A stretch of DNA of 64,000 bases from Biomaibacter acetigenes. GTDB taxonomy: Bacteria; Bacillota; Thermosediminibacteria; Thermosediminibacterales; Tepidanaerobacteraceae. The position numbers were made by a program, and so were the translations under genes. Shown here one piece after another: positions 36,398-51,670 of the stretch. The notes under the pieces are model-generated. The model was not told the origin of the DNA and ran no database searches. It saw nothing but the letters and a program-made list of their open reading frames with translations. How positions within the stretch are numbered: the first letter of the stretch is position 1; each line of letters starts with the position of its first letter. Location: positions 2,170,001 to 2,234,000 of the forward strand of contig NZ_CP033169.1 of assembly GCF_003691585.1 (NCBI RefSeq). The letters run 5' to 3'.

Positions 36398-36427
36398 GAA
36401 GCCCCCGACAGGGGCTTTATTTTTTTA
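36398..36427 (+). terminator. Terminator of the TrpXYZ-type operon
   Basis: An AAGCCCC/GGGGCTT stem with a 5-base loop is followed by TATTTTTTT on the plus strand. It starts six bases after the ATPase stop and also faces the convergent nagA gene. Confidence 0.85.
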
Positions 36428-36451: not shown

Positions 36452-37666
36452 TTATTCTGGTAACTGAAATCTGACGGTTCCCCTCGTTATGACGGTTTTA
36501 ATATTTATCCTTTCGTCGAAGACTATAATATCCGCATCCTTTCCGGGGACGAGGGCCCCTTTGCGGTCGGCCACGCCGATAATCCGTGCGGGGGTACTGG
36601 TCATCATTCTTACGGCGTCGATGAGAGGGACACAGGCTATTTCCACCATTGTCTTTACAAGCCTGTCGGCGGTGGCCACGCTGCCTGCAAAGGCGCTGCG
36701 GTCCGGGAGCTTGGCCACCCCTTCTTCGACTATGGCCTCTTGACCGCTCTTTAAGCTTCCGAGAATATATTCGCCGTCGGGCATGCCCGCGGCCCTCATG
36801 GAGTCGGTGACGAGACATATTCTGTCGGGACCTTTTATCTTGTATATGAGTTTAAGAAGACTCTGTGGTAGATGTTTACCGTCGGCTATTATCTCCACGG
36901 TCATATCGTCGATCAAAAAAGCGCTTTCCACCACCCCGGCATAGCGGTAAGCGTTAATTCTTCGTACCATTGACATACCGGAATACAGGTGGGTCACATG
37001 CGTAAAACCGTTTTCGAACGCTCTTTGAACATCCTCGTAGATGGCGTTGCTGTGCCCTATTGATGGGAGCACGCCCCGGTTTTTGAGCTCCCTTCCCATT
37101 GCCAGAGCCCCTTCCAGTTCCGGCGCCACGGTCCAGCGGATGATATCTTTTGAGTAATCAAGGATTTTCATGTATTCTTCTCTGTCGGGGTTTTTAATGA
37201 ATCTGGGGTCCTGGGCGCCTCGCTGTTCCATGGAAAAATAGGGACCTTCCAGGTGGATACCCAGCAGCTCCGGACCGTCCTGGTATTCCCCGGCTTTTTT
37301 AAAATTGTCCAGTGTTTTAAACAGATCTTCAAGCGAGCTGGTCAAAGTGGTGGGCACCAGAGAAGTGGTACCGTGCCGCATATGGGCTCTGGCGGCTTCC
37401 AGGATGGCTTCCACAGTGCCATCCATAAAATCATGCCCGCCGGCACCGTGGGTGTGGATGTCTATAAAGCCGGGAGCGATGTAGTTTCCACCGGCATCGA
37501 TGATTTTACTGTCTTCCTGGGCCGCCATCAGATTTGATTCCGCTTTGCACATGTCTTGCTCCGTTTCAAGCACTTCGGATATTACGCCACCTTTTATCAG
37601 TAGCCCACCGCCCGTGATCTCACGGAAGGGGGTAAGGATATTACCTTTTTTAATAAGCAATTTCAT
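36452..37666 (-). CDS. nagA: N-acetylglucosamine-6-phosphate deacetylase
   Basis: A 404-residue amidohydrolase-superfamily deacetylase. The metal motif is PGFIDIHTHGAGGHDFMDGT near residue 68. Further family blocks are LLGIHLEGPYFSMEQRGAQDP near residue 138, IGHSNA near residue 210 and LVTDSMRAAGMPDGEYILG near residue 290. It would remove the N-acetyl group from a 6-phosphorylated N-acetyl amino sugar. ATG 37666 is preceded by GAGGTGA; an upstream in-frame start is not supported. It is the last gene of the LacI-controlled operon, right after the NagB-like gene. No sugar kinase or PTS is linked, so the source of the phosphosugar is unclear. Confidence 0.9.
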   Translation of the reverse strand: MKLLIKKGNILTPFREITGGGLLIKGGVISEVLETEQDMCKAESNLMAAQEDSKIIDAGGNYIAPGFIDIHTHGAGGHDFMDGTVEAILEAARAHMRHGTTSLVPTTLTSSLEDLFKTLDNFKKAGEYQDGPELLGIHLEGPYFSMEQRGAQDPRFIKNPDREEYMKILDYSKDIIRWTVAPELEGALAMGRELKNRGVLPSIGHSNAIYEDVQRAFENGFTHVTHLYSGMSMVRRINAYRYAGVVESAFLIDDMTVEIIADGKHLPQSLLKLIYKIKGPDRICLVTDSMRAAGMPDGEYILGSLKSGQEAIVEEGVAKLPDRSAFAGSVATADRLVKTMVEIACVPLIDAVRMMTSTPARIIGVADRKGALVPGKDADIIVFDERINIKTVITRGTVRFQLPE

Positions 37667-37690
37667 AGCCATCACCTCATAAAACACAAG

Positions 37691-38476
37691 TCAATTTCCG
37701 ACAATATTTAAATCGGATGCCGAATCTTCATCCAGGTACAGCACGGCGTTGGAGTGTTTTCTCAAAATAGATGCGGGGCATTTTTCCGATATCGGGCTTT
37801 CAACTGCGGATTTTACCGCTACGGCTTTGTTTTTTCCCGGCACAATACAGAATATAAATTCGGCTGAAAATATGGCCGGCACCGTCATGGTGAGGGCATA
37901 TTCCGGCACATCTTCAAGTTTTGTAAAACAGCCGTCGTGGACCTGCTGCAGCCGGCATTTCATGTCAAGGTTGACCTTTTTTACTGTAAGTCTATCGTGA
38001 AAATCCGCCACATGCGGGTCGTTGAAAGCGATATGGCCGTTTTCGCCTATGCCTATGCAGGCGATATCTATAGGGTTATCTTTTATGAGTTTCCCATAGC
38101 GCTCACATTCTGTCTTGATATCTTCTGCATTGCCGTTCAAGTAATTTACGGTTTTAAAAGGCACTTTGGAAAAAATCCTCTCATATAAATATCTGCCAAA
38201 CCTTTGAGGCGCGTCCTCCGGAAGGCCGATGTATTCATCCAGGTGGAAGGCATTTATCCTGTGCCATTGTATGCCCTGGATTTTTGTCAGTTCTTCCAAA
38301 AACTCGTCCTGGGACGGCGCCGCTGCAAATACCATGTTTATTTCATCCTTATGGGATAAAAGTTCTTTTATTTTAGAAGCGATATCTCTGGCGGCGGCGT
38401 ACCCCATTTCTTTGCGATTATTATATATATTAATCAACAGATTGTCTGATTTGAAAGTGGTGATTTTGCTCATCAT
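37691..38476 (-). CDS. Glucosamine-6-phosphate deaminase family protein (NagB-like)
   Basis: A 261-residue NagB/6-phosphogluconolactonase-fold protein. It has NAFHLDEYIGLPEDAPQRFGRYL near residue 75, with Asp80 equivalent to E. coli Asp72, and GIGENGHIAFNDP at 142-154, with His148 equivalent to His143. The E. coli Glu148 position is Asp153 and the Asp141 position is Asn146. It is therefore a divergent member and may act on an isomer other than glucosamine 6-phosphate. Adjacent to nagA, it would convert the deacetylated amino-sugar phosphate to a ketose phosphate and ammonia. Starts at ATG 38476 after GGAGG. Confidence 0.85.
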   Translation of the reverse strand: MMSKITTFKSDNLLINIYNNRKEMGYAAARDIASKIKELLSHKDEINMVFAAAPSQDEFLEELTKIQGIQWHRINAFHLDEYIGLPEDAPQRFGRYLYERIFSKVPFKTVNYLNGNAEDIKTECERYGKLIKDNPIDIACIGIGENGHIAFNDPHVADFHDRLTVKKVNLDMKCRLQQVHDGCFTKLEDVPEYALTMTVPAIFSAEFIFCIVPGKNKAVAVKSAVESPISEKCPASILRKHSNAVLYLDEDSASDLNIVGN

Positions 38477-38509
38477 TCATGCCTCCAACATTTCAAGGAA
38501 TTTCTCAAT

Positions 38510-39499
38510 CTAATATATCAGCTCCAGCACATAAACTACCGCCGGAATTGTAATCATGGAAAGAATTGTGGTTATCAAAACCGTTTTTGCCGCAAACTCC
38601 GGATGTTTATTGTATTTATTGGCCAGAATGGCTGTAAACATCATGACCGGCATTGCGGCCTCAACAGTAATTACCTTTTTGAGTATTAAAGAAATTGGCG
38701 CAAAATATGCGATTCCTCCTACCAGGATGGGAGAGATTATAAGTCTGATAAAGGCCGCCCATATTACCAGGGTATCGAATATTTCCCTTGAAATACAAGA
38801 ATGGCCTACGGACAAACCTATAAACAACATGGAAAGGGGGATGGTGATATCCCCTACAGTCTTTGCCGTTCTGCTTATTATGTCCGGCATGGGAATTTCC
38901 AGCATGACCATAAAAACGGCCAGGACCAGGGCTGCCAGGGGTGGGTTGATGAGGTTCTTTAAAAAGCGACCCGGTGTGAAAAAACATCCTTTTAAGAAGT
39001 TTCCAGCCTCCTGCGATTTTTTACATTCACCTGTGGGGCAGCCCTTACAGGCAAGTTCCATCCCCAACGTCCAGAGTACCATCCCCGAACCCAGGTCATA
39101 GAAAAACACAAAACCGGCCGCGCTTTCACCGTATATGGATGTAACAATAGGCAGTCCTATATACACAGTATTGCAGAAGGAAACGGTCATATAAAAAATA
39201 TCAAGTTGCGTTTGATCTTCAACTTTAATTATCTTTCCAACTGCATATGCCGCAATTATCGAAAGGAGAGTCATGAGTACGGCAAACTGAGGAACAGCGA
39301 GAGATGACAGAACCGTCTCCCGGGTAAAATATCCTGTGATGCTGGAAAGTATAAGAGCCGGGGAGGTTATATAAAAAATCAGATTGGAAAAGGCTTTTGT
39401 ATCATTTTCCTTAATTATTCCAAACCTTGCCGCCAAAAAGCCAATTCCCGTAAGTATGATTATTGTCGCAATGGATTCTAGCAAGCCGTTATAGTTCAT
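38510..39499 (-). CDS. AEC (auxin efflux carrier) family transporter
   Basis: A 329-residue membrane protein with ten predicted hydrophobic helices in two five-helix halves, typical of the AEC family of organic acid carriers. A Cys-rich cytoplasmic loop (ELACKGCPTGECKKS, about residues 150-165) between the halves is unusual. ATG 39499 is favoured by GAAAGG seven bases upstream; another ATG lies two codons earlier. In bacteria AEC proteins move malate or other carboxylates. Here, inside an amino-sugar-like operon, it might export a carboxylic by-product such as lactate or acetate; this is inference. Confidence 0.85.
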   Translation of the reverse strand: MNYNGLLESIATIIILTGIGFLAARFGIIKENDTKAFSNLIFYITSPALILSSITGYFTRETVLSSLAVPQFAVLMTLLSIIAAYAVGKIIKVEDQTQLDIFYMTVSFCNTVYIGLPIVTSIYGESAAGFVFFYDLGSGMVLWTLGMELACKGCPTGECKKSQEAGNFLKGCFFTPGRFLKNLINPPLAALVLAVFMVMLEIPMPDIISRTAKTVGDITIPLSMLFIGLSVGHSCISREIFDTLVIWAAFIRLIISPILVGGIAYFAPISLILKKVITVEAAMPVMMFTAILANKYNKHPEFAAKTVLITTILSMITIPAVVYVLELIY

Positions 39500-39519
39500 G
39501 GTCATGCCTTTCTATTTAA

Positions 39520-40278
39520 CTATCTTAAATGTTTAATTCTTCCCATATATTTTTGAAAATACTTTTTATTTGCTTCATCTCCGCCGGGCATATTGGCGCT
39601 GCGCCAGACCGGCGGGTTAATGCCTTTTTCCAGCAATTTTCTTACGGTTTCAATGACCAGTAGATTTACCGTAAAACTGTTAACCAGAGTTGATGTGGGC
39701 GCTACTTTTTCCCCAAAATTTTCAAATTCAACAACAGCGTCGCCCAGGGGCAGGTGGCTGTCTACAAAAACATCAACTATTTCATACAGGTTCTTACCGC
39801 TGGGATGTCGGGCAGGGTGGTCTTTCGCTACGGTATCGGCATAACTTTTCGATGTGACGCCAATGGTTTTCATTCCCCTCTTCTTTGCTTCAAGGGCTAC
39901 GTCGATGCACATCGAGTTAATTCCGTAAGCATTGATTATTACAATAGGCTCACCGCTGCCCACTCCGTAGCTATCGAGCACCGCTTTGCCATAACCGGGG
40001 GTTCTTTCAATAACAGTTGAACGAAAAGCTCCACAGATCAGCGCAGTTCCCTGGTCAAGTATAGGGTTTACAGGCACAAGACCGCCTGCCCTGTAAAACA
40101 TCTCCTCGGCTCCAATATTGGAATGTCCTCCGGGGCCTATCACGTGAATCAACCGGTCTTTTTCTATGGCTTCTACCATTATATCTGAAGCTCTGTCAAT
40201 TGCATCTTTATTTTCACCCTCAATAGCGGAGAACAAAGCTATTACTTTTTTCAAATAGAACTCCGTTTGTCTACTCAT
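39520..40278 (-). CDS. SIS domain phosphosugar-binding protein, copy 2
   Basis: A 252-residue SIS-domain protein of the COG4821 type. It has HVIGPGGHSNIGAEEMFYRAGGL near residue 44, an IVIINAYGINSMCIDVALEAKKRGMKTIGVTS segment near residue 112, and HPARHPSGKNLYEIVDVFVDSHLPLGDAVVE near residue 154. SIS domains bind phosphosugars and serve as isomerases, lyases (MurQ) or sensors; there is no helix-turn-helix here. It lies directly after a paralogue (40336-41106) with matching motifs throughout, so the two may form a heteromer. Starts at ATG 40278 after AAGGAGAG. Confidence 0.85.
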   Translation of the reverse strand: MSRQTEFYLKKVIALFSAIEGENKDAIDRASDIMVEAIEKDRLIHVIGPGGHSNIGAEEMFYRAGGLVPVNPILDQGTALICGAFRSTVIERTPGYGKAVLDSYGVGSGEPIVIINAYGINSMCIDVALEAKKRGMKTIGVTSKSYADTVAKDHPARHPSGKNLYEIVDVFVDSHLPLGDAVVEFENFGEKVAPTSTLVNSFTVNLLVIETVRKLLEKGINPPVWRSANMPGGDEANKKYFQKYMGRIKHLR

Positions 40279-40335
40279 CTTCCATCTCTCCTTATAAATA
40301 ATAATGCTTGTTTTTTAAACTGTAAAGATAAAACC

Positions 40336-41106
40336 TTACAATCTTTTCAGGACATTGTAGTATTCTTCAAAGTAGCGCTGATTTCTCCTCCCGGCATCGG
40401 GAGTATTTACGCTGACAATTACCGGGGGCTCTATACCTTTTTCGATTAATTTTTCAACGGTGCGGCAGACCATGGTATTTACTATATATGATATGACTAC
40501 CGTGGTTATGGGGCCCACTTTCACATCCAGCCCCTCCAGCTCTACTACCGCATCACCTACCGGCATCTTGCAATCTATCATAACGTCAGGTTCCAGATCG
40601 CACAGATTTTTACCGGAGGGATGCCGTGCCGGGTGATTTTCCGGAATAGCCCTGGCATTGACCGGAGATGTGACGGCGATGATTTTTGTACCGCGTTTTT
40701 TGCATTCAAGGGCTGTTTCAATGGTTGCAGCGTTAATGCCATAGGCGTTTATCAATATAAGCAAATCATCTTTTTTCACCTTATAGTAATCTAAAAGGGC
40801 TGTCGCTATTCCCGGTACCCTCTCCAGGAGCATGGATCTTAAAGCTCCCTGATCCATGGAAAACTCCAGAATGGCGTTTATGGGAACCAGTCCCCCCGCC
40901 CTAAAGAACAAATCTTCAACCCCTATCCTGGAATGAGCTCCGGGACCAATGGCGTGTATGACTTTGTTTTGGGCGATCTGCTCCGTCATAAGGTCTGCCG
41001 CCTTTTCTATGTTCTGCCTCTCCTCGGTGTATATCTTACTAATATATTCCGTAACCCGGCTATAATATTTATCTACGGCGCTGGCCTTCTTTTCCACCTT
41101 TGCCAC
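40336..41106 (-). CDS. SIS domain phosphosugar-binding protein, copy 1
   Basis: A 256-residue SIS-domain protein, clearly paralogous to its downstream neighbour. Shared motifs are HAIGPGAHSRIGVEDLFFRAGGL near residue 52, INAYGINAATIETALECKKRGTKIIAVTS near residue 115 and HPARHPSGKNLCDL near residue 158. The catalytic role is unknown; candidates are an isomerase or a MurQ-like etherase on a phosphorylated amino sugar. The GTG start at 41106 directly abuts GAGGAGGA. The GTG three codons further in is better spaced and may be the true start. Cotranscribed with two amidohydrolase genes upstream. Confidence 0.85.
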   Translation of the reverse strand: MAKVEKKASAVDKYYSRVTEYISKIYTEERQNIEKAADLMTEQIAQNKVIHAIGPGAHSRIGVEDLFFRAGGLVPINAILEFSMDQGALRSMLLERVPGIATALLDYYKVKKDDLLILINAYGINAATIETALECKKRGTKIIAVTSPVNARAIPENHPARHPSGKNLCDLEPDVMIDCKMPVGDAVVELEGLDVKVGPITTVVISYIVNTMVCRTVEKLIEKGIEPPVIVSVNTPDAGRRNQRYFEEYYNVLKRL

Positions 41107-41144
41107 TCCTCCTCAGTAAAAATTGATTTTCTTATAAATCTATT

Positions 41145-41954
41145 TTATATTAAAGAATCCAGAATCTTTTTCATGTTGAGTCCTAAAATCTTAGCTTTAT
41201 CTTCTTCCGAAATTTCCGCATAACCTACCCGGCCCACGGCGGGCCTCGAATCTAAAAAAGGGGCATCGGTACCAAACAAAACCCTGTCTGCTCCCACTTC
41301 CCTTACCATGAGCTCCACAATACCCTCATAATGAAAAGAACCTGTGAGGTCAAGGTAAACATTATTACATTCACTGGCGACTTTAATAGCTTCATATATG
41401 GCTTTCGGCACCCCTCCTGAATGCCCCAGTATAAAAGTAACGCTGTCATATTGTTTGGCGAGTTTTCCAAAAACCTTAACATTATCTATGCCCCAAACAT
41501 GGGAAAGCAAGAGCCCTCTTCGTTCCTGTAAAATTTCATAAACCCTGTGGTATTCCATACCATCCGGGGGATAATCATGAGTTTCCGGATGGATCTTTAT
41601 CGCCGACATCCTGCCTCTTTCCCAGTGTTTTTCTATCTCTGATTCTATTAACTCGGGATAATTGGGATTTACGCCAATATAGCCGAAAAATCTGTCGGGA
41701 TATTGTTTTACCACTTTATGGACCCATTCGTTGCCGTATAAAAAATCAGGTCCGATGGACAGCAATGCGGAAATGCACATCTTATCGATACCCAGGATAT
41801 CCATACTTTTAATTAAAGATTTTTCATCATATTCGGGAATATGAAAGTTAAACCACTGGCCAAGATGAGCATGACAGTCAATAATTGTGAATTTTTTAAG
41901 AGGTTCCCCTCTTGATAATGTTTCTCTAATTTCATGAAACCCCTTATCAATCAT
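41145..41954 (-). CDS. Amidohydrolase-2 family metal-dependent hydrolase (intact active site)
   Basis: A 269-residue TIM-barrel hydrolase of the amidohydrolase_2 family. All expected ligands are present: HAH (His28, His30) in IIDCHAHLG, Lys120 in AIKIHPETHDYP, His152 in LLSHVWG, His178 in ILGHSGG and Asp230 in FGTDAPFLDSR. The family includes sugar lactonases and decarboxylases, so it may open a sugar lactone. Its ATG overlaps the upstream degenerate paralogue by 8 bases, and the ribosome site GGGGGG sits within that gene. The two are translationally coupled and may form a complex. Confidence 0.87.
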   Translation of the reverse strand: MIDKGFHEIRETLSRGEPLKKFTIIDCHAHLGQWFNFHIPEYDEKSLIKSMDILGIDKMCISALLSIGPDFLYGNEWVHKVVKQYPDRFFGYIGVNPNYPELIESEIEKHWERGRMSAIKIHPETHDYPPDGMEYHRVYEILQERRGLLLSHVWGIDNVKVFGKLAKQYDSVTFILGHSGGVPKAIYEAIKVASECNNVYLDLTGSFHYEGIVELMVREVGADRVLFGTDAPFLDSRPAVGRVGYAEISEEDKAKILGLNMKKILDSLI

Positions 41955-42705
41955 AGATTACACCCCCCAGCAGGTGCCTTAGATTGTCTCCGGCGATTTT
42001 CTTTTTATCCTCATCCGGTAGTAATAAATGTGTAATCATGGTTACCGCAGACCCGGCGCTGTAGACCGGGAGCCCGCTGCCGAAAATAAGCCTGCTGGTC
42101 CCAAATCTGGCGCACAGGGCCTCTATCCCGAAATGGACTTTATAGCTTGAAGTCTCAATATATATGTTCTGGAAGGAATCCAGCAGGGGGTAAAGATAAC
42201 GGTCGGCCCTATAACCCGTATTCGTAAGGATAAGGGGGATATCTTTATATTCCGATGTTATACTGGAAACTGCATCATAGTCAATTTGATCCATTCCGAA
42301 CATCAGAGGAACCTTATGTTCATTTAGCACCGCAAGTAAAGCCCTGCTTCTCTGTGTAAAAAGGCCGTAATTTTGTGCGCTTTTTGCTGGAAAGGCCCGA
42401 ACCATTTTTACATTGTTGGCCTTGAGAAGTTCAATAAGATTATACGGGTCGTAAAATTCGCCAGTATCGTTTGGCATCACCACCCATACGGGATATAGAT
42501 TACTGTAATCTTTTATAGTCTCCATCAACACCTCATTTCCCTTTTTGGGATGGTACTCTTCAGCCAGGCTGTGGTAGACCATGGCTTCCCGGATTCGGCA
42601 GATTTCCATACGTCTTAAAAGGGATTTTATATCGGTAAAAGAACCTTTTAAAAGAACATTCCTCATTCCAATGGAACAATTGGAGTCGAAAAATTGCAAT
42701 GGCAA
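41947..42705 (-). CDS. Amidohydrolase-like protein lacking metal ligands (probable pseudoenzyme)
   Basis: A 252-residue protein with the layout of an amidohydrolase_2 barrel, but every metal motif is changed. The H-x-H motif is DSNCSIG (residues 7-13), the L-x-H-x-G motif is LTNTGY (160-165) and the G-T-D-x-P-F motif is FGSGLPVY (208-215). The frame is intact at full length, so it is kept by selection. It directly precedes an intact paralogue with which it overlaps. A structural or regulatory partner role, or metal-free chemistry, is suggested. The start is TTG 42705, six bases after GAGGTG. Confidence 0.8.
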   Translation of the reverse strand: MPLQFFDSNCSIGMRNVLLKGSFTDIKSLLRRMEICRIREAMVYHSLAEEYHPKKGNEVLMETIKDYSNLYPVWVVMPNDTGEFYDPYNLIELLKANNVKMVRAFPAKSAQNYGLFTQRSRALLAVLNEHKVPLMFGMDQIDYDAVSSITSEYKDIPLILTNTGYRADRYLYPLLDSFQNIYIETSSYKVHFGIEALCARFGTSRLIFGSGLPVYSAGSAVTMITHLLLPDEDKKKIAGDNLRHLLGGVIYD

Positions 42706-42726
42706 TTAAGTCACCTCTTTTAAAAT

Positions 42727-43051
42727 TCAAAAGATGGCAGCAAAAAACACGTATTCCAGTGGTTCTTGCCCGGTATTTTTTATGGTATGTTCGGTGCCAA
42801 GAGGTATATACTGCCTGACCGCCGCAAACATCGTATTCCTCATTCCCAAGCCTTATCTTCCCTATTCCCTTTATTATCCAGTAAGTCTGCTCTTCATTGT
42901 CGTGTACATGAGGTGGAACACTCTCTCCTGGCTTTACGCTGACGTGGCTCATAACAATTTTATCCAGTTTAAATAAGTGCTTATAATCTGCAAAATCATA
43001 CCCGTTTACAGAAACCTTTGTCAAATCCTTTATATATTCAGTCTCTGTCAA
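42727..43051 (-). pseudogene. Cupin protein with a frameshift near its middle
   Basis: A small cupin (about 107 residues) begins at ATG 43051 and reads well as far as WIIKGIGKIRLGNEEYD. The second cupin half, IPLGTEHTIKNTGQEPLEYVFFAAIF, is in another frame and ends in TGA at 42727. The two join at about 42804-42812 around a TATATA tract, where a 2-base loss or 1-base gain explains the shift. Without correction the frame runs on into the next gene. It lies between the sodium symporter and the amidohydrolase pair. It is either a recent pseudogene, a programmed slip or a sequencing error. The intact form would be a sugar-binding or isomerising cupin. Confidence 0.75.
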
Positions 43052-43119
43052 TTTAAAGGCCTCCTTTAAAATTAATTAAAATGCATGAGGCCTTATACAG
43101 GCCCCATGACATCAGACTA

Positions 43120-44580
43120 TTAATTTCTTTCCAGTATCTCGAAAATTTCATCCACTTCAGCTTGTTTTTCAGGCGGCATTTTGGAAATATAGCCTTCGGC
43201 TATAAAAACGATAGCTGTGATGAGTAGTGAACCGCCGGTAATTAGATTCCACGAGCCGTGCATGGGATATTTAAATATGAAGAAAGACACCACGCCGCAC
43301 AGCCATGACAGAAGTGCGCCTTTCCATGTGGTTCTCTTAAATATTAACCCGAAGAGCATCGGTATGGCCACAGGGCCCATTAATCCTGCAAACCATGTCA
43401 TCATAGCCTTAAAGGCTCCTCCCATCGCCGGTGTTAGAAGTCCGGCAATAACCGATAAAGCACAGAACACAGCCGTTGTTATCCTGCCGACATTTAAGAG
43501 CTTTTCAGGGGTTGCGTTGGGATCAAAAACCCGCTGGTATATGTCTTTTGTAAACACCGCTGAAACACTGTTTGAATCGGAATCCACCATTGACATAGTC
43601 GCTGCAAACATGGCTGCCAGCATAAAGCCCATTGCGCCGGGCAATACTGGAGCCAGGAACTTGTTTGCCATAAGTACATATGCATGTTCCGGATTGTCAA
43701 TTGCAGGTATAAATATGGGTGCCGCCCACATTGGTATAAACATAAACAACGGATATACCAGGTAAAGGGCAGCGGAAAGATATGCGGCCTTCATTCCTTC
43801 CCTGGGTCCCTGGAGAGAAATAAATCGTTGAGCCAGACCCCACGTTCCGCCGTTATAACTCAAAATAACTACAACAAGATATATAAGCACATAGAGAGGT
43901 GTATAGTCTCCACCAAAAGCTGCAAGGCGTCCCGGAGGCAATTGCTGCCATAGTCCTCCCCATCCGCCCACTTTCGACAGAACAATAAAAGCCAGAGGAA
44001 TTGTTATTACGAGCTGAACGATGAATTGCGCGAAATCCGTCAATACATCAGCCCAGATTCCGCCTATAGTCGTATATAACAGCGCCACTATTCCACTAAA
44101 AATAATGCTCCATTGCAGAGGAATGCCCGCCATAACTGAAACAAATACGCCTATTGAATAAAGTTTCAGGCCCTCATCGATAAATTTCAATGAAATTCCA
44201 CTCCATGCTAAAGCCTGCCTCACAGTATTGTTGAACCGTGGCTCCATAATTTCCAGCGGTGTAACAACCTTTTTGTAAAGTCCAAGATTGGTCCAGCGCG
44301 GTGCAAACACAAGAGCTCCCAAAACCATTGCTATTGCAATAGTCACCGCCCACAGGGTATAAATCGGAAAACCTATTTTGTATGCAACACTGGCATAGGC
44401 TATAAAAGCAAAGGCGCTGTATCCCGACATATGGTGGGAAATCGCCGCCAGCCACCACGGCATTCTGTGACCGGCGGTAAAATAGTCTTCAATGCCTTTA
44501 ATCAGGTTCTTCACATATAAACCAATAATGATCATCGCTACAAAAAACAGCACTAAAACTGAGTAGTCTATAAAACCCAT
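43120..44580 (-). CDS. Sodium:solute symporter (SSS family)
   Basis: A 486-residue permease with about 13 hydrophobic helices. SSS landmarks include YFTAGHRMPWWLAAISHHMSGYSAFAFIAYASVAY near residue 33, TTIGGIWADVLTDFAQFIVQL near residue 170 and MLAAMFAATMSMVDSDSNSVSAVFTKDIY near residue 320, whose Ser residues form the sodium site. It is the first gene of the LacI-regulated operon and should bring in the starting substrate unphosphorylated. ATG 44580 follows GGGGGG. The closest characterised relatives carry sugars, sialic acid or carboxylates; I cannot narrow it further. Confidence 0.92.
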   Translation of the reverse strand: MGFIDYSVLVLFFVAMIIIGLYVKNLIKGIEDYFTAGHRMPWWLAAISHHMSGYSAFAFIAYASVAYKIGFPIYTLWAVTIAIAMVLGALVFAPRWTNLGLYKKVVTPLEIMEPRFNNTVRQALAWSGISLKFIDEGLKLYSIGVFVSVMAGIPLQWSIIFSGIVALLYTTIGGIWADVLTDFAQFIVQLVITIPLAFIVLSKVGGWGGLWQQLPPGRLAAFGGDYTPLYVLIYLVVVILSYNGGTWGLAQRFISLQGPREGMKAAYLSAALYLVYPLFMFIPMWAAPIFIPAIDNPEHAYVLMANKFLAPVLPGAMGFMLAAMFAATMSMVDSDSNSVSAVFTKDIYQRVFDPNATPEKLLNVGRITTAVFCALSVIAGLLTPAMGGAFKAMMTWFAGLMGPVAIPMLFGLIFKRTTWKGALLSWLCGVVSFFIFKYPMHGSWNLITGGSLLITAIVFIAEGYISKMPPEKQAEVDEIFEILERN

Positions 44581-44676
44581 TCGTTAAACCCCCCATTATT
44601 TTATAGTAATTTAACTAATGTAAGGTTTGTTAAATTTTTATTTACTTATTCACCACCTCCAAAAAAAACGAAATTA

Positions 44677-44721
44677 TAGTAACCGATTACTATTATAGAA
44701 AAAAATATATACTTGTGTCAT
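44677..44721 (-). promoter_or_regulatory. Promoter and LacI-type operator of the symporter operon
   Basis: The 16-base palindrome TAGTAACCGATTACTA (44677-44692) has the central CG typical of LacI operators. On the minus strand it directly follows a TATAAT -10 (44692-44697), which is 18 bases from an ATGACA -35 (44716-44721) inside the 3' end of the lacI-family gene. Repressor bound there would block the start of transcription. Confidence 0.85.
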
Positions 44722-45766
44722 TCGCCATCAATTTTTTAGTAGAGTTTCTCACCACCAATTTTGGTTTTAATACTATCTCTATACTTCTTTCACTGGAACT
44801 TTCTAAATTGTTTATGAGCATTTCGGCGGCCAGAGCTCCCATCTCGTAAGCCGACTGGTCTACGGTTGTAAGTGAAGGAGTTATCATTTCAGAGGTGGGA
44901 ATGTTATCAAAGCCCATAACAGAAATATCTTTGGGTACATATATTTTATTTTTTGTAAGCTCCTGTATAGCTCCAAAAGCCGTCATGTCATTAATACAGA
45001 ATATGGCCGTTGGGATTGGTTTTCCTGAGCCCAGCAATTTATTTACAAGATACTTTCCGTTTTTAAACTCGTAGACCTGGTCGTGACTTTCTTCTTCATC
45101 TTCGGATAAGATAATGTAATCCTGGCTTTGCTCAATACCGTTATCTTTCATGCACTGCATAAATCCCTCATAAATCTGTATTCGGCTGTACCGGGTTAAA
45201 GGTGCACTTAAAAAGGCTATCTTTCTGTGGCCGAGTTTTATGAGGTGTTCTGCGGCCATATACCCCCCGGCATAAAAGTCAAAGCTTATCTTGCAGCAGT
45301 CAAGGGATATCCCCTGGTCAAATGCGACTATCTTTAAGCCTTTTTGCTGGAGTTGTTTTAAATAGTCCTGGTTCTTAGTAATGGAGGAAATGATGATGCC
45401 TTTAATTTGCTTTTGAAAAAGAGTTGATAAATATTTTTTCTCATTTTCTGGCTTTCTAAGGGAATTACAGAGAAGCACGTTATAACCCTTTTTTCTGGCC
45501 ACATCCTCTACTCCCAATAATAGCAGTGGGTAAAATTGATTGGTAATGCTTGGGATAATAATGCCTATATCGAGACTTTCATTGGTTTTAAGCTGCCGCC
45601 CAAGCAAATTCGGAGTATAGTTTAACTTTCTGGCCGCTTCCAGCACCCTCTGCTTTAGCTCCTCTTTTACCGGGTATCCGTTGTTGCTTAAAACCCTTGA
45701 GACAGTGGCTGTTGACGTTTTTGCGAGCTTTGCTATATCGTAAATTGTAGCGTTTTTCTCTGCCAT
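44693..45766 (-). CDS. LacI family transcriptional repressor
   Basis: A 357-residue LacI/GalR regulator. The N-terminal helix-turn-helix reads ATIYDIAKLAKTSTATVSRVLSNNGYPV, the hinge helix ARKLNYTPNLLGRQLK follows, and a periplasmic-binding-type effector domain fills the rest. ATG 45766 is favoured by GGAG seven bases upstream. Matching operators lie on either side of the gene: one before the symporter operon and one before its own start. It therefore probably controls both and responds to the operon's substrate or a pathway intermediate. The gene ends one base from the downstream operator. Confidence 0.92.
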   Translation of the reverse strand: MAEKNATIYDIAKLAKTSTATVSRVLSNNGYPVKEELKQRVLEAARKLNYTPNLLGRQLKTNESLDIGIIIPSITNQFYPLLLLGVEDVARKKGYNVLLCNSLRKPENEKKYLSTLFQKQIKGIIISSITKNQDYLKQLQQKGLKIVAFDQGISLDCCKISFDFYAGGYMAAEHLIKLGHRKIAFLSAPLTRYSRIQIYEGFMQCMKDNGIEQSQDYIILSEDEEESHDQVYEFKNGKYLVNKLLGSGKPIPTAIFCINDMTAFGAIQELTKNKIYVPKDISVMGFDNIPTSEMITPSLTTVDQSAYEMGALAAEMLINNLESSSERSIEIVLKPKLVVRNSTKKLMANDTSIYFFL

Positions 45767-45787
45767 CACTATTCTCCTCAGAGTTAC

Positions 45788-45801
45788 AGTAATCGGTTAC
45801 T
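45788..45801. promoter_or_regulatory. LacI-type operator upstream of its own gene
   Basis: AGTAATCGGTTACT is a perfect palindrome sharing 12 of 14 bases with the operator at 44677-44692 (AGTAACCGATTACT). It lies 22 bases upstream of the lacI-family start, which suggests autoregulation. Confidence 0.8.
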
Positions 45802-45889
45802 ATATTATTTATTTCTACATTTGTTTAAAAAATCCTTCTTCAAAATAGTTTTTTTTAAAAAATTTTTTAGAAATTATTCCTCAATAATT

Positions 45890-46065: not shown

Positions 46066-47637
46066 TCAAACGGAAGCCTGCAGCAACTTCAGGTGTTTGC
46101 CGATATGCTCCTCCAATGCTTTGTAGTATTCTTCCTCATGTTCATTCAACGTGCTGTAAATATCATCTTTGAGGAGGTACTTCCCATCCTCATTTTTTGC
46201 CGTTAAAATCAATCCATATGTTATATGGAGTACCTGGCGGGCATCGTCCTGAATGAGCACATGAGACAAGTCTTCATCGCTCATGGTGCTTATATCCGGC
46301 ACATTTGCAAGGTTTGTGGTGACATGATAATATCTGGTAGCCTCATGAAAATGCTCCAGAGCAAAGATATATATCTTTCTGAAGAGGTCGGGCTTTTTAT
46401 GGGCGATTACCTTTAATGCCTCCAGCCAATTGGTGCCGGCGGTCTTTACGTGAACCCGTCCTTTTGTGTATTTGCCTATAATGGGAAATACCTTGAATTT
46501 GTCGCTGCCGGAGTGAATGCTCAAACGATAGCCAAAGAGGTCTGCAATGGCTGCATGGACCTTGAATTCCCTCTCGAACTGTTCAATGTCTCCAATGTAA
46601 TCTATAGCCTTCTGAAACTCGCCGCAGAACCGTGGAGCAAGGCTGGTCACATCGACCCCCTTTTTTTTAAGCTCCGAAGCCACAAAGAAATGGGCCTGGG
46701 GTGTTGTAGGCGTCATGGTTTCATCGATGGAAACCTCAAAGTCCACTTTTCTTCCTGCGGGTTTTATAATATCATGGTAGATATGGTTTATAAAATCCAG
46801 GGCTTTGCCGTATATTAAAACAATCCTTTTTAAATTTCCTCCATCAAATGCGATCTTGATATCTCCCGATATAACATCCTTCACGTAAAACTCACTGTCA
46901 AGGTAATCTTGCTCGATTCTTTTTATATAATCCGGTTCAAGGCTATTATATCCCTTTTCAACATCTTCATCAGACATGGCCGGCACATCATTGTTTATCA
47001 TTTCCGAACAGTCGAGGGTTATCATGGAAAATCCGAGGTCCAGGGCCATTTTTACTTCATCCTCGGTCTTTAGATGGTCCCCATCGGCTCCGAAGCCCAG
47101 CCGGTAACCTTCCTGAAACACGGCCCAGGATGCGGCATCCAGCACATCTTCATAAGTCCTTTCTGTAAGATTCAGCTCCCGGATAGACTGCTGGGCCAGC
47201 ACCGGCCTTATCTTTGTCTTTTTTATAAGACGCAGATGCCCCGGTGAAGCAAGGCCCAATCTATCCCCCAACCCCATGCTCATGCAACCTTTACCGAAGG
47301 CCACCGGTGATGTAAAGGGAAACCATTTCCGTGAAGCTTTGGCATTGTGATGGCTCAAAGGTAAAAGTTTTACCATTTTCTCTTCGATAGATTCAGTTTC
47401 CCCCTGGAAATCTTCAGTAAGTTTTTTAACTTCATCGGTAAGGTCATCTACAATTATTACCATTTTCTTTTCCCCGGCATCTTTTGTCATGAAAAAGATG
47501 CAACCCTTTAATAAATTTATGGATTCCGGATAGACCCCATAGGCATGAAAATATTTGGAAGCTTCCCTTCTGGCAGCTTCAATGTTCATTTCCCCGGAAA
47601 TCACTTTTTTACAAAATGCCTTCCAACCTTCCTGCAA
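46066..47637 (-). CDS. uxaE: Tagaturonate epimerase
   Basis: A 523-residue protein of the UxaE (tagaturonate epimerase) family, known from Thermotoga maritima, which interconverts D-tagaturonate and D-fructuronate. Long conserved blocks are recognisable: FTSPVAFGKGCMSMGLGDRLGLASPGH near residue 107, QEGYRLGFGADGDHLK near residue 175, VSIDETMTPTTPQAHFFVA near residue 300, and IHSGSDKFKVFP near residue 378. The family lies outside the well-known sugar isomerases. Starts at TTG 47637 after GGGGGA. Last gene of a uxaB-uxaA-uxaE unit, so it probably links the galacturonate and glucuronate branches. Confidence 0.87.
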   Translation of the reverse strand: MQEGWKAFCKKVISGEMNIEAARREASKYFHAYGVYPESINLLKGCIFFMTKDAGEKKMVIIVDDLTDEVKKLTEDFQGETESIEEKMVKLLPLSHHNAKASRKWFPFTSPVAFGKGCMSMGLGDRLGLASPGHLRLIKKTKIRPVLAQQSIRELNLTERTYEDVLDAASWAVFQEGYRLGFGADGDHLKTEDEVKMALDLGFSMITLDCSEMINNDVPAMSDEDVEKGYNSLEPDYIKRIEQDYLDSEFYVKDVISGDIKIAFDGGNLKRIVLIYGKALDFINHIYHDIIKPAGRKVDFEVSIDETMTPTTPQAHFFVASELKKKGVDVTSLAPRFCGEFQKAIDYIGDIEQFEREFKVHAAIADLFGYRLSIHSGSDKFKVFPIIGKYTKGRVHVKTAGTNWLEALKVIAHKKPDLFRKIYIFALEHFHEATRYYHVTTNLANVPDISTMSDEDLSHVLIQDDARQVLHITYGLILTAKNEDGKYLLKDDIYSTLNEHEEEYYKALEEHIGKHLKLLQASV

Positions 47638-47657: not shown

Positions 47658-49145
47658 TTACAAGGTTACCCCGTTTTTAAATATGGCTATTTCTCTAAAG
47701 CCCATGTTTTCTGACTTTGTGGCCATACCGGAAGCCACTTTTAAAACGCTATCCATGAGCTCATCAGTAAGTTTTTCCATGGACTCTCCGTTCAGCAACC
47801 TTCCAGCATCAAAATCCATCCAGTTGGATTTCCTCTTGAAAATATCGCTGTTGGTGGCGATTTTTACTGTTGGAACCGCAGTCCCCAGCGGAGTCCCTCT
47901 GCCGGTGGTAAAAAGGATAATCTGGCATCCCGATGCCGCCAGCGCAGTAGAAGCTACCATGTCGTTGCCTGGTGCGCTCAAAAGGTTTAATCCCTTTTGT
48001 TTTATGGTTTCGGCATATTCCAGCACATCCACCACATTGCTGGTGCCGCCCTTCTGGGTGCATCCCAGGGATTTTTCCTCCAGGGTAGTAATGCCGCCTT
48101 TTTTATTGCCCGGAGAAGGATTTTCATATATGGGCTGGTTATATCCCATGAAATATTCTTTAAAGTCATTGATGAGCTTTACTGTCTTTTCAAAGATTTC
48201 CTGATTTTTGGCCCTATTCATGAGGATGGTCTCGGCTCCGAACATCTCAGGCACTTCCGTCAAAACGGTGCTCCCGCCACAGGATATAAGCTTATCAGAA
48301 AAGCTCCCCACCAGAGGATTGGCGGTAATGCCTGAAAAGCCGTCGGACCCTCCGCATTTTAATCCCACGGTAAGTTCCGATACGGGTACCTCTTCTCTTT
48401 TAAATTGTGAAGCATATTCCACCAGTTCTTTGATAAGCTTTAAACCTTCCTGTATCTCATCTTCAACTTCCTGAGCGACTAAAAATCTCACTCGCTGGGG
48501 ATCATATTCCCCAAGTACTTTTTTAAACTCCGCAATGTTGTTGTTCTCACAACCCAGGCCCAGTACCAGTACTCCTCCGGCATTAGGGTGGTTCACCAGA
48601 TCCGCCAGGATCTTCTGGGTATTTAATTGGTCTTGACCCAGCTGCGAGCAGCCGTAGGGATGTGTAAACTCATATATGCCGTCGATATTCTTGGCGCTTG
48701 CAAGTTCTTCCATGGCTTGTCTTGCTATGAGCTGGGCAGCCCTATTGACACAGCTCACGGTGGGGATTATCCAGATTTCGTTTCTTACTCCCACCCTACC
48801 GTCTTTTCTGCGATAACCCTGAAATGTCTTATCACATTTTACCGGCTCATGCTGTTTTAACTCCGGATGGTATTCATAATCAAGGATCTCACCTAGATTT
48901 GTCTTTATGTTATGGGAGTGAACCCATTGTCCGGCCTTTATGTCGGATATGGCATGGCCTATGGGAAAACCGTACTTTATGACATTTTCCCCCTTTTTTA
49001 TGTCTTTTATGGCTATCTTGTGCCCTTTATCTATATCCTCAATGGCTGTGATGCTGGAAGCTTCTACTTTTAGGACTTCCCCTTTTTTTATATCATCGAT
49101 GGCCACCGCCACATTGTCCCTTTCATGAATCTTTAATAGCGGCAT
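47658..49145 (-). CDS. uxaA: Altronate dehydratase
   Basis: A 495-residue UxaA/GarD-family dehydratase. Residues 1-75 are a SAF-like domain (HERDNVAVAIDDIKKGE, FPIGHAISDIKAGQWVH). The catalytic part has GYRRKDGRVGVRNEIWIIPTV near residue 105, HPYGCSQLG near residue 155, LGLGCENN, and LKCGGSDGFSGITANP near residue 275. It converts D-altronate to 2-keto-3-deoxygluconate and needs iron or manganese. ATG 49145 follows GAGGAGGG. The upstream in-frame extension has no start signal and runs across a repeat. It is transcribed after uxaB, with a 95-base gap holding an inverted repeat. Confidence 0.92.
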   Translation of the reverse strand: MPLLKIHERDNVAVAIDDIKKGEVLKVEASSITAIEDIDKGHKIAIKDIKKGENVIKYGFPIGHAISDIKAGQWVHSHNIKTNLGEILDYEYHPELKQHEPVKCDKTFQGYRRKDGRVGVRNEIWIIPTVSCVNRAAQLIARQAMEELASAKNIDGIYEFTHPYGCSQLGQDQLNTQKILADLVNHPNAGGVLVLGLGCENNNIAEFKKVLGEYDPQRVRFLVAQEVEDEIQEGLKLIKELVEYASQFKREEVPVSELTVGLKCGGSDGFSGITANPLVGSFSDKLISCGGSTVLTEVPEMFGAETILMNRAKNQEIFEKTVKLINDFKEYFMGYNQPIYENPSPGNKKGGITTLEEKSLGCTQKGGTSNVVDVLEYAETIKQKGLNLLSAPGNDMVASTALAASGCQIILFTTGRGTPLGTAVPTVKIATNSDIFKRKSNWMDFDAGRLLNGESMEKLTDELMDSVLKVASGMATKSENMGFREIAIFKNGVTL

Positions 49146-49170
49146 AAAATCCCTCCTCTTAAGGAAAGTT

Positions 49171-49218
49171 GGGGACGGTTCTTGACTTGAATCAGAATGT
49201 TCCGAAGAACCGTCTCCC
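49171..49218. repeat. REP-like inverted repeat between uxaB and uxaA
   Basis: GGGGACGGTTCTT and AAGAACCGTCTCCC form a 13-bp imperfect stem (one bulged base) around a 21-base loop. The GGGACGGTTCTT arm resembles short dispersed palindromic elements found in many Clostridia genomes. No second full copy was seen in the window. Confidence 0.65.
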
Positions 49219-49240
49219 GGTACGGTTATTAGTGCGGTTG

Positions 49241-50761
49241 TTAGATAAGTTTTTCTACCGTCGCTTTTATACCGTCTTTTGTAATCTGATATAGATAATC
49301 CCCTACTTTTTCCGCCAGGCCTTCTACGTTGTTTAAATCTTCGCCCCACATGGCAGTATTGGCTAGAACCCTTTCAGCCACTTTGGCGGCGGATTCTTTG
49401 CTGCCGTCAAATGATTCCCATACATTTTCAAAAAACTCCAGAGCCGGGAGGTCATCCTTCATGGTGAATTCGCCCTTTTCCCTCATGGTCTTCATGGCGC
49501 TGCCCTCCACATGGCCGTCTTTATATACTGCAATCAAAGCAGCCATGGAGAAGGTGAGCTTTTCCGGGAGTTTACCATTGAGCTTTTTATATTCAAGTAT
49601 AGAAGGCAAAACCCTTGTCTTGAACTTAGAAGATGAATTCAGGAGAATGCTTATAAGGTAATGCTTTATATATGGGTTCTGGAAGCGCTCTACCACTGAA
49701 TCGGCAAATTCTGTAAGCATTCCCTTATCAAGGTCTATAGACGGGATTATTTCATCATATATGATTTGCCTTGTATATTTGCCCATGACTTCATGGTCCA
49801 TCATCTCGCCTACTGTCTCAAGACCATACAGGAATGCGGCCGGCACCGAAGAGGTATGGGCGCCGTTTAAAATACGCACTTTCCTGGTCCGGTAAGGCGT
49901 CATGTCATCGGTCCATATAACATTAAGGCCCACTTTTGTAAAGGGCAACCTTTCGGAAAGTTCCTTTGGTCCCTCAATTACCCACAGGTGGAACAATTCT
50001 CCTGTATCAACCAGCTCATCCTCATAGCCCAGTTTTGCCAGGATGTCTTTTATTTCATCCCTGGGATACCCGGTAACAACTCTATCAACAAGAGTATTTA
50101 AAAAGATGTTGTGTTCCTTTACCCATTTCTTAAATTCTTCCGGAAGGTTCCAGTCGTCAGAAAGCTGGAGGACAATCCTCTTCAGGTTATCGCCATTCCT
50201 GTCGATAAGCTCGCAGGGAATTATTACCATGCCCCTGGCAGCATCTCCGTTGAAATGCCGGAACCTGTGGTAAAGGTATGCCGTGAGCTTGCCCGGATAG
50301 GACACCGGTGGCTTGTTTTCCAGGCTATCGTTTTTTTCATAGGCGATACCGGCCTCGGTAGTATTGGAAATTACAAATTCTATATGTGGATCTTCGGCAC
50401 ATTTAAGGTATGCATCCCAGTCCTTATACGGATTGATTCCTCTGCTTACTGAGCTGATTATCTCCTTAAGCTCTGTGGGCTTACCATCCTTTAAACCCCT
50501 CAAAATCAAGGTGTAGAGGCCATCCTGCTCATTTATCCTGGGAACCAAACCTTCGGCTATGGGCTGAACAACTACAATGCGCCCGTTGAACAATTTATTT
50601 TTGTTCATCTGATGGAACATCCAGTCCACAAATGCCCTCAAAAAATTGCCTTCGCCGAACTGGATCACCCTTTCCGGCAGGTTTTCGGGAAACTCCTGTA
50701 CCTGTAAATCTTCCGGAAACTTGAAGCCACTTTTTAATAATTCTTTATTAAGTGTTGCCAT
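49241..50761 (-). CDS. uxaB: Tagaturonate reductase
   Basis: A 506-residue member of the polyol-specific long-chain dehydrogenase family (mannitol dehydrogenase type). It has VIQFGEGNFLRAFVDWMFHQMN near residue 32 (NAD-binding), SNTTEAGIAY near residue 133, and the catalytic block KVRILNGAHTSSVPAAFLYG near residue 300 with the Lys, Asn and His residues. UxaB reduces D-tagaturonate to D-altronate with NADH. ATG 50761 was chosen for its spacing from AGGAGGGG. A ROK-type operator and a near-consensus -10 lie just upstream, so it starts its own transcript. Confidence 0.92.
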   Translation of the reverse strand: MATLNKELLKSGFKFPEDLQVQEFPENLPERVIQFGEGNFLRAFVDWMFHQMNKNKLFNGRIVVVQPIAEGLVPRINEQDGLYTLILRGLKDGKPTELKEIISSVSRGINPYKDWDAYLKCAEDPHIEFVISNTTEAGIAYEKNDSLENKPPVSYPGKLTAYLYHRFRHFNGDAARGMVIIPCELIDRNGDNLKRIVLQLSDDWNLPEEFKKWVKEHNIFLNTLVDRVVTGYPRDEIKDILAKLGYEDELVDTGELFHLWVIEGPKELSERLPFTKVGLNVIWTDDMTPYRTRKVRILNGAHTSSVPAAFLYGLETVGEMMDHEVMGKYTRQIIYDEIIPSIDLDKGMLTEFADSVVERFQNPYIKHYLISILLNSSSKFKTRVLPSILEYKKLNGKLPEKLTFSMAALIAVYKDGHVEGSAMKTMREKGEFTMKDDLPALEFFENVWESFDGSKESAAKVAERVLANTAMWGEDLNNVEGLAEKVGDYLYQITKDGIKATVEKLI

Positions 50762-50785
50762 AACCAATCCCCTCCTGAATATTTT

Positions 50786-51622: not shown

Positions 51623-51670
51623 TTTGAATGCCTCCAATTTAAATAGTTTCCATCTCAACATATTGAGCAA

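Follow-up and report, generated by a model that had tools for sequence, protein, structure and literature searches.

We analysed a stretch of 64,000 nucleotides from Biomaibacter acetigenes (contig NZ_CP033169.1, positions 2,170,001 to 2,234,000; hereafter the window). On its minus strand, at 36452-44580, lies an operon of nine genes that encode an SSS-family importer, a cupin, two amidohydrolases (AH7 and AH6), two SIS proteins (SIS1 and SIS2), an AEC-family carrier, a NagB-like protein and NagA; a gene for a LacI-family regulator precedes them. This is a real, conserved, LacI-controlled system, in which the SIS and NagB-like enzymes deviate from what is usual for phosphosugar proteins and for which the substrate is a prediction. 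Our tentative reading, held with somewhat less than even confidence, is that the operon breaks down an N-acetyl-hexosaminuronate to a ketouronate that would feed an adjacent uronate pathway, the substrate and every reaction being predicted.

Searches of Pfam and NCBIfam gave consistent family names for the nine genes and LacI, and found no phosphotransferase system (PTS) gene among the nine. A first-pass annotation, made from the letters alone, had described nine same-strand genes and a LacI gene as a single LacI-controlled unit with two matching operators and a non-phosphorylating importer; the gene coordinates, the SSS gene, the lack of a PTS in the operon and the operator search reported below bear this out. 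Its short gaps and overlaps stood in part: intergenic gaps of 3-68 bp and an 8-bp overlap of the AH7 and AH6 genes are real, with 112 bp between LacI and SSS, whereas a 146-bp overlap of the cupin and AH7 open reading frames is a frameshift artefact, the remainder of the cupin domain continuing in another frame and finishing before AH7. A pseudogene and a sequence error could not be told apart as the source of this frameshift, which lies near 42810. The genes are as follows:

44693..45769, minus strand: LacI-family regulator (PF00356, PF13377; nearest NCBIfam models RbsR/PurR, both below their cut-offs)
43120..44580, minus strand: SSS-family sodium:solute symporter, the importer (PF00474; nearest solved relatives vSGLT, then 5nv9)
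42728..43051, minus strand: small cupin gene, frame shifted near 42810 (PF07883 on the N-terminal part)
41947..42705, minus strand: AH7, amidohydrolase_2 fold without metal ligands (PF04909, 32.4 bits)
41145..41954, minus strand: AH6, amidohydrolase_2 with the full HxH/H/H/D ligand set (PF04909, 102 bits)
40336..41106, minus strand: SIS1, UPF0309/NagS-family SIS protein, N-type (see below), divergent (NF002805)
39520..40278, minus strand: SIS2, UPF0309/NagS-family SIS protein, N-type (NF002805)
38510..39505, minus strand: AEC-family carrier (PF03547)
37691..38476, minus strand: NagB-like protein, AAPSQ replacing the TGGTP phosphate loop (PF01182; below the nagB cut-off)
36452..37687, minus strand: NagA, N-acetylhexosamine(-6-phosphate) deacetylase family (TIGR00221, 302.7 against a cut-off of 225.65)

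Each SIS protein matched a single NCBIfam family at E 0.001, NF002805, and no MurQ etherase model was among their NCBIfam matches at that threshold. Their solved sequence relatives were two, NagS (SCO4393) and 3cvj. A structure model of SIS2 (mean predicted local distance difference test score, pLDDT, 94.5) lay nearest to NagS (Z 33.4, root mean square deviation 1.6, 31% identity) and then to 3cvj (Z 32.0), with MurQ structures following at Z 18-19. According to the part of the published account that we consulted (PMC12680351), NagS dehydrates N-acetylglucosamine 6-phosphate (GlcNAc-6-P), with H53, R64, E94 and D179 essential and S54, S119 and S121 holding the phosphate, and NagA acts on the product. 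The window proteins have the fold and family of NagS (PDB 9eol/9f7o/9f7v), and both retain H53, S54, R64, E94, D179 and N228 (NagS numbering). They differ from it in having N for S119, Y for S121, a one-residue insertion in the first phosphate loop and, at the equivalent of S91, T in SIS2 and M in SIS1; their genomic setting is also different, and their function is a prediction.

We refer to genes with N at NagS position 119 as N-type (47 of 47 by definition) and to those with S at 119 and any residue at 121 as S-type. In the 47 N-type genes, H53 and R64 were retained in 46 of 46 rows with letters, E94 in 46 of 47 (the exception being locus L238; L and G numbers denote our loci and genomes), D179 in all 47 and N228 in all 45 with letters. 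At position 121, Y occurred in 40, N in three, I in two and V in two, and the S91 equivalent was mostly T, N or M. In a tree of 121 rows, the N-type genes and three spirochaete rows with H and I at 119 and 121 formed one clade with support 100/98, although the bootstrap had not fully settled. By record titles and lineage labels, the clade spans Bacillota, Bipolaricaulota, Thermotogota, Spirochaetota, Atribacterota, Synergistota, Myxococcota and a metagenome-assembled genome (MAG) labelled Bacteroidota; many of its members are MAGs. A recent tandem duplication as the origin of SIS1 and SIS2 was rejected, as the two do not group together in the tree; SIS1 sits on a long branch of unsure exact place and, as far as the tree tells, is an old, divergent relative of SIS2 and not a fresh tandem copy. 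The idea of the two SIS genes as a conserved pair did not hold either, no other tandem N-type pair being present in the relatives' gene maps.

The two types of SIS gene differ in their surroundings. We compared 38 N-type genes on stretches of at least 5 kb, among them both window genes and one locus counted twice (L039 = L206), with 31 S-type genes, a set from which the Bacteroidota-dominated loci L049-L112 were dropped. Operon runs were split at gaps above 300 bp. Genes of the PTS, of tripartite ATP-independent periplasmic (TRAP), SSS and ATP-binding cassette (ABC) transporters, NagA and NagB-like genes were labelled by blastp against seeds from these loci and two PTS types, so that other PTS types and distant members can escape (the NagB-like gene beside SIS in G414, for example, was unlabelled in L042). 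A PTS gene stood in the same run as none of the 38 N-type genes and 19 of the 31 S-type genes, or 19 of 93 once the Bacteroidota-dominated set was included (p 0.0017; the rows are related by descent, and this and the other Fisher p-values are nominal). TRAP or SSS genes shared a run with 17 of 38 N-type genes as opposed to one of 31 S-type genes (TRAP), and NagB-like genes with 18 of 38 as opposed to one of 31. Any labelled TRAP, SSS or ABC part was found with 25 of the 38 N-type genes, and no hexosamine kinase was found among the labelled genes in N-type runs, the labels being partial. NagA, the NagB-like gene or both accompanied 24 of the 38 (both in 17), and NagA accompanied five of the 31 S-type genes; the first-pass annotation had proposed co-occurrence in other genomes as a check, and the families do cluster there. 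Nine N-type genes had no labelled NagA, NagB-like, TRAP, SSS or ABC gene in their run. The nearest solved relatives of a TRAP receptor from N-type clade loci include sialic-acid receptors.

The genome of the window holds a third SIS gene (G000:C1:2996426-2997139; L003, L218), which is S-type, has a mannose-type PTS and a NanE-like gene as its neighbours and serves as an internal control for the split between the two types. The genome-search match to this gene contains one stop codon (TAA). Two further genes recur around SIS genes. A Ceramidase_alk-family (PF04734) protein lies beside both types (N-type: L119:12719-14053, L117:12943-14265, L121, L122, L222 and L223; S-type: L215, L219, L230, L231 and L234), and N-type SIS is repeatedly accompanied by a gene of the GlcNAc-2-epimerase family (AGE), namely in L119, L117, L121, L122, L222 and L223, with SSS in five of the six. 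Judged by residues and surroundings, the N-type clade has apparently shifted to substrates other than phosphosugars. The suggestion that one of the unassigned pairs performs new chemistry is retained in this changed form, and the puzzle of an operon with neither kinase nor PTS is probably accounted for by N-type SIS proteins that lack two of the three phosphate-contacting serines, in a clade with no labelled PTS gene in its runs.

The NagB-like protein departs from its family at a corresponding place. Where NagB of B. subtilis has TGGTP, it has AAPSQ, which was invariant in 11 aligned proteins, and the same alignment showed that R175, K217 and the DEY and NGH motifs, the catalytic motifs of NagB, are retained. 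It scored 160.9 against the TIGR00502 cut-off of 236.9 and thus missed the nagB equivalog level. The type was present in 32 of 398 genomes of the phylum, and three proteins labelled NagB-like in the N-type loci L037, L038 and L044 were much more distant. One locus with no SIS gene, L283, has a NagB-like gene together with TRAP genes, two URO-D-type proteins, a mannitol-dehydrogenase-type reductase and UxuA; by its gene content it appears to be a second type of uronate-linked setting for this gene.

Directly upstream of the LacI gene, the window carries hexuronate genes:

46066..47637, minus strand: UxaE, tagaturonate epimerase (PF16257, 680.8 bits)
47658..49349, minus strand: UxaA/galactarate-dehydratase-type protein, by context probably altronate dehydratase (TIGR03248, 324.8 bits, below the cut-off of 730.85)
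49241..50767, minus strand: UxaB, tagaturonate reductase (NF002969, 683.4 against 359)
50819..51670, minus strand: IolB/KduI-family isomerase, a possible stand-in for the missing UxaC (TIGR04378, 237.3 against 205)

This cluster also includes an M24-peptidase-type protein (the IolB/KduI-type and M24-type genes together occupy 50819-52756) and a TRAP transporter. Hexuronate genes adjoin N-type SIS in six genomes, represented by the window, L118, L119, L034, L123 and L039. In L118, NagB-like and NagA are followed by ROK, TRAP, M24, KduI-type, UxaB and UxaA genes; in L119, Uxa genes and a KduI-type gene are interleaved with those of the N-type SIS cluster; and in L039, UxuA (TIGR00695, 411.5 against 199.55) lies 63 bp 3' of SIS. 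D-mannonate oxidoreductase exceeded its cut-off of 281 bits in L123 and L034 (408.8 and 383.4), next to a phosphogluconate dehydrogenase in L123 (777 against 426.7 bits), the L034 counterpart of which is labelled by similarity. Such genes were near N-type SIS in 6 of 32 genomes and near S-type SIS in none of 25 (nominal p 0.030; Bacteroidota-dominated set excluded), or in 6 of 33 and 1 of 87 with that set included (nominal p 0.0017), the N-type total falling from 33 to 32 once two of the loci had been traced to a single genome.

The usual entry to this pathway, the uronate isomerase UxaC, gave no PF02614 match in the single-contig genome of the window (G000). Of 12 genomes searched, three gave a match; of the six in which hexuronate genes adjoin N-type SIS, only one did, and the other five gave none. 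The search was positive in 7 of 14 control genomes. KduI/IolB was found in 8 of the 12, and not in G266 (L123) or G408 (L034), which also show no UxaC. These two have a ketouronate reductase and neither of the isomerase kinds searched for, one being a MAG of unknown completeness and the other 94% complete. Another source of ketouronate therefore seems to be wanted.

N-acetyl-hexosaminuronates are common units of bacterial capsules, O-antigens and teichuronic acids. Acid-type importers, the lack of a PTS, a deacetylase, a deaminase that retains two basic residues although its phosphate loop is altered, and a set of later enzymes for which a ketouronate is the starting point would all fit an acetamido sugar acid. 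The substrate would be a 2-acetamido-2-deoxy-hexuronate of the N-acetylglucosaminuronate, N-acetylmannosaminuronate or N-acetylgalactosaminuronate type, with a carboxylate at C6 and no 6-phosphate. SSS would bring it in with sodium, NagA would take off the acetyl group, and the NagB-like enzyme would isomerise and deaminate the amino-uronate, as NagB does with glucosamine 6-phosphate, to ammonia and D-fructuronate or D-tagaturonate; known NagB chemistry, applied to glucosaminuronate or galactosaminuronate, would lead to fructuronate or tagaturonate. UxaE, UxaB and UxaA could then convert the ketouronate to 2-keto-3-deoxygluconate, no kinase being necessary up to that point. The N-type SIS proteins may apply the C2-deprotonation chemistry of NagS and MurQ to this N-acetyl sugar acid, with C3 elimination or C2 epimerisation as the outcome, and the AH6/AH7 pair perhaps opens a uronolactone or removes a substituent. 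From its two operators, LacI would keep both the operon and the lacI-family gene itself repressed until an early intermediate is formed. The gene content, the operators, the residue changes, the clade and the gene contexts are observed, whereas we infer the roles of the SIS proteins, the amidohydrolase pair, the AEC carrier and the cupin, as well as the substrate and the individual reactions. The ketose phosphate that had been put forward as the end product is not supported. A broader version of the amino-uronate reading is somewhat more doubtful: that a multi-phylum SIS clade, with its NagA and NagB-like partners, shifted from 6-phosphate to 6-carboxylate amino sugars and forms a kinase-free N-acetyl-hexosaminuronate pathway, joined in the window by a hydrolase of one active and one metal-less amidohydrolase.

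Several points weigh against the amino-uronate reading, and some of them suit an ordinary N-acetylhexosamine (HexNAc) operon, in which a neutral HexNAc would enter through SSS, an unlinked kinase would phosphorylate it, and NagA and the NagB-like enzyme would yield a ketose 6-phosphate. The adjacent uronate genes would then be an independent galacturonate operon that co-occurs through common plant or microbial polysaccharides. NagA passes the 6-phosphate enzyme model (GlcNAc-6-P deacetylase), the nearest solved relative of SSS is the sugar transporter vSGLT, and R175 and K217 are retained in the NagB-like family. This family also occurs without N-type SIS, and in L287 its neighbours, NagA, a GH20-type enzyme and an importer of the ABC type, make up a neutral-sugar setting; it is therefore not tied to uronates alone, and an amino-uronate route does not explain it there. 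Hexuronate genes lie near only a minority of N-type genomes, for which a shared polysaccharide diet may suffice, and the counts come from related rows. In the window, L118 and L119, UxaB has an IolB/KduI-family neighbour that could take the place of UxaC, which weakens the argument from the absence of UxaC; for E. coli KduI, isomerisation of hexuronates under repression of UxaC has been proposed (PMC3578941, in the part consulted). FGGY-type kinases are present in two N-type loci (L035 = L225, and L125). Loss of the serines is by itself no proof of loss of phosphate, because S54A, S119A or S121A alone hardly harm NagS (the consulted part of PMC12680351), and S91, which is important in NagS, is also altered in most N-type genes. 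Finally, the SIS proteins lack a task if NagA and the NagB-like enzyme suffice. This unexplained task and the NagB-like genes in neutral-sugar settings are what limit our confidence in the amino-uronate reading. All the same, we regard an ordinary HexNAc operon as unlikely: as far as the partial labels reach, no N-type locus has a PTS or a hexosamine kinase in the run, the NagB-like protein has lost its phosphate loop and the SIS proteins two phosphate serines, and UxuA lies inside the L039 SIS operon, as the Uxa genes do among those of L119.

Two other readings give the SIS proteins a task. In one, which we consider distinctly improbable, an N-type SIS enzyme would cut an acidic N-acetyl disaccharide or ether, either a uronosyl-HexNAc of the hyaluronan or chondroitin type or N-acetylmuramic acid (MurNAc), by C3 elimination on an unphosphorylated HexNAc, as MurQ does on MurNAc-6-phosphate; NagA and the NagB-like enzyme would handle the HexNAc, and the freed uronate would explain the Uxa and Uxu genes. 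The place of MurQ after NagS and 3cvj among the relatives of the SIS2 model, the TRAP and SSS importers, which suit acids, the adjacent hexuronate genes, and a second FGGY/aldolase set in L125 that could take the free ketose are consistent with it. A freed uronic acid, however, needs an isomerase, and UxaC was not found in five of the six genomes concerned, nor KduI/IolB in two of these; the N-type loci examined, where most unlabelled genes were judged by eye, showed no recognisable lyase, hyaluronidase or MurNAc gene; and in the MurNAc version the uronate genes stay unexplained. That version, with export by AEC of lactate from a MurNAc-type ether, had been raised by the first-pass annotation, and likeness to MurQ and LarA-type genes in L034, L113 and L123 had prompted it again. 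It is not supported and was set back, since the LarA-type genes of L034 and L123 stand with D-mannonate oxidoreductase and phosphogluconate-dehydrogenase-type genes, and the L123 protein has just one PDB relative, a 'putative uronate isomerase'; with such company, these genes indicate sugar acids over lactate. A further reason is that two LarA homologues are described as D-gluconate 2-epimerases acting on D-mannonate (PMC7583248, in the part consulted). The other reading, less probable still in our estimate, is a dehydration route: the N-type SIS enzyme would turn an unphosphorylated HexNAc or its uronate into an enamide of the chromogen I type, NagA would deacetylate this, and the 3-deoxy-2-keto sugar would be oxidised towards 2-keto-3-deoxygluconate, where the Uxa pathway likewise ends. 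The reactions of NagS and NagA outlined above and the retention of the essential NagS residues favour this route. Against it, activity on GlcNAc-6-P was negligible or absent in NagS homologues of 25.7-35.7% identity in the part of PMC12680351 consulted (SIS2 is at about 31% to NagS, against 58.7% or more within Streptomycetaceae), no dedicated oxidase recurs, and the NagB-like enzyme would be left without a clear task.

We examined how the operon is controlled. The relevant elements are:

44677..44692: LacI operator O1, between the LacI stop and the SSS gene, a TAGTAAYCGRTTACT palindrome that touches the -10 box
45787..45802: LacI operator O2, upstream of the LacI start, a TAGTAAYCGRTTACT palindrome that overlaps a 9-of-12 promoter match
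44692..44721, minus strand: promoter match ATGACA-18-TATAAT, 11 of 12, for the structural genes (a consensus match only)
43084..43108, minus strand: 10-bp hairpin and T-rich tail in the SSS-cupin gap, a possible attenuator (terminator scan)
36399..36417, minus strand: terminator-like hairpin 3' of NagA (terminator scan)

With up to one mismatch, TAGTAAYCGRTTACT occurs at two sites in the genome (3,398,311 bases, single contig), both at the operon and each read on both strands, and the backward control pattern of the palindrome had no site in the same 3,398,311 bases. O2 suggests that LacI regulates its own gene. A lone promoter match means little, as the scan gave 28 promoter-like sites against 20.4 +/- 4.1 in shuffles, and terminator-like sites were no commoner than in shuffles. 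The palindrome, again with up to one mismatch, recurs in loci of relatives that carry LacI relatives and genes of the operon set. It is found twice in L039 (Tepidanaerobacter sp. GT38), directly before the NagB-like gene; with the order LacI-SIS-AEC in L045/L155; with LacI-NagB-like-NagA in L249/L296, from the same genus as L039; in L282; and before the NagB-like gene in L135/L300, a short contig that shows no LacI. The regulon therefore appears to be old and centred on these genes. What is left in L045 and L155 is LacI with the operators, AEC, the 3' part of SIS2 and 48 bp of SSS; both look like a once complete operon after a large internal deletion. Operators with one mismatch in L065 and L335 were dismissed, as they look like chance.

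Paired amidohydrolases, also pointed out in the first-pass annotation, do recur in tandem in other genomes, but AH7 has lost all five metal ligands (N, S, gap, N and G at the five places), as have the AH7-type partners in L113 and L117 lost theirs, and the pair forms no fixed module with SIS. In ten aligned tandem pairs, found with a metal-less profile and therefore sampled in favour of pairs with such a member, one protein of each has all five ligands, and the partner has lost at least four of the five in eight; in L349 and L351 the partner retains three or four. Pairs with one ligand-less member are those of the window, L113, L117, L348, L350, L352, L353 and L354. A structure model of AH7 was poor (mean pLDDT 56.8, two sequences). 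As a fixed part of the SIS module the pair was rejected, because it occurs with N-type SIS in the window, L113 and L117 only (with one amidohydrolase in L238) and elsewhere in other sugar-type settings. AH6 shares the HxH/H/H/D ligands of single-chain amidohydrolase_2 decarboxylases and lactonases, which are its sequence relatives (3cjp, gamma-resorcylate decarboxylase), but unlike theirs its gene overlaps that of a ligand-less partner. AH6 and AH7 are likely to be a metal hydrolase and its dead partner subunit.

The system can be set against known pathways. With GlcNAc catabolism by NagA and NagB it shares a NagA above the cut-off and the DEY and NGH motifs; it differs in lacking a kinase or PTS in the operon, in the exchange of TGGTP for AAPSQ and in missing the nagB cut-off. 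The hexuronate (Ashwell) pathway, UxaC-UxaB-UxaA or UxuB-UxuA together with UxaE, is represented upstream by UxaE, UxaB and UxaA-type genes, and in the clusters of relatives by UxuB- or UxuA-type genes, but UxaC was not found in the genome of the window, and entry would be by deamination of an amino-uronate and not by isomerisation. Sialic-acid (Nan) clusters likewise combine a TRAP or SSS importer, NagA, a NagB-type gene and SIS genes. The SIS proteins of Nan clusters are RpiR-type regulators, whereas those of the window belong to an enzyme family and have no DNA-binding domain, and neither NanA nor NanK was recognised in the operon. In the text portions returned by an open-access literature search on amino-uronate catabolism, on SIS/NagB/TRAP operons and on UPF0309, we found no description of such a system or of a breakdown route for N-acetyl-hexosaminuronates. 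Two Acinetobacter papers among the results mention both amino-uronic acids.

SIS domains are taken as phosphosugar binders and NagA and NagB as 6-phosphate enzymes, and a clade that keeps the catalytic residues without part of the phosphate contacts departs from that picture. Together with its separation from PTS genes, the split between N-type and S-type offers a simple sequence rule for phosphorylated versus non-phosphorylated substrates that corrects automatic annotation. If the amino-uronate reading is true, the operon would provide a breakdown route for the acidic N-acetyl sugars of bacterial surface polymers, and it would explain how several genomes could use UxaB and UxaA, or UxuB, without UxaC.

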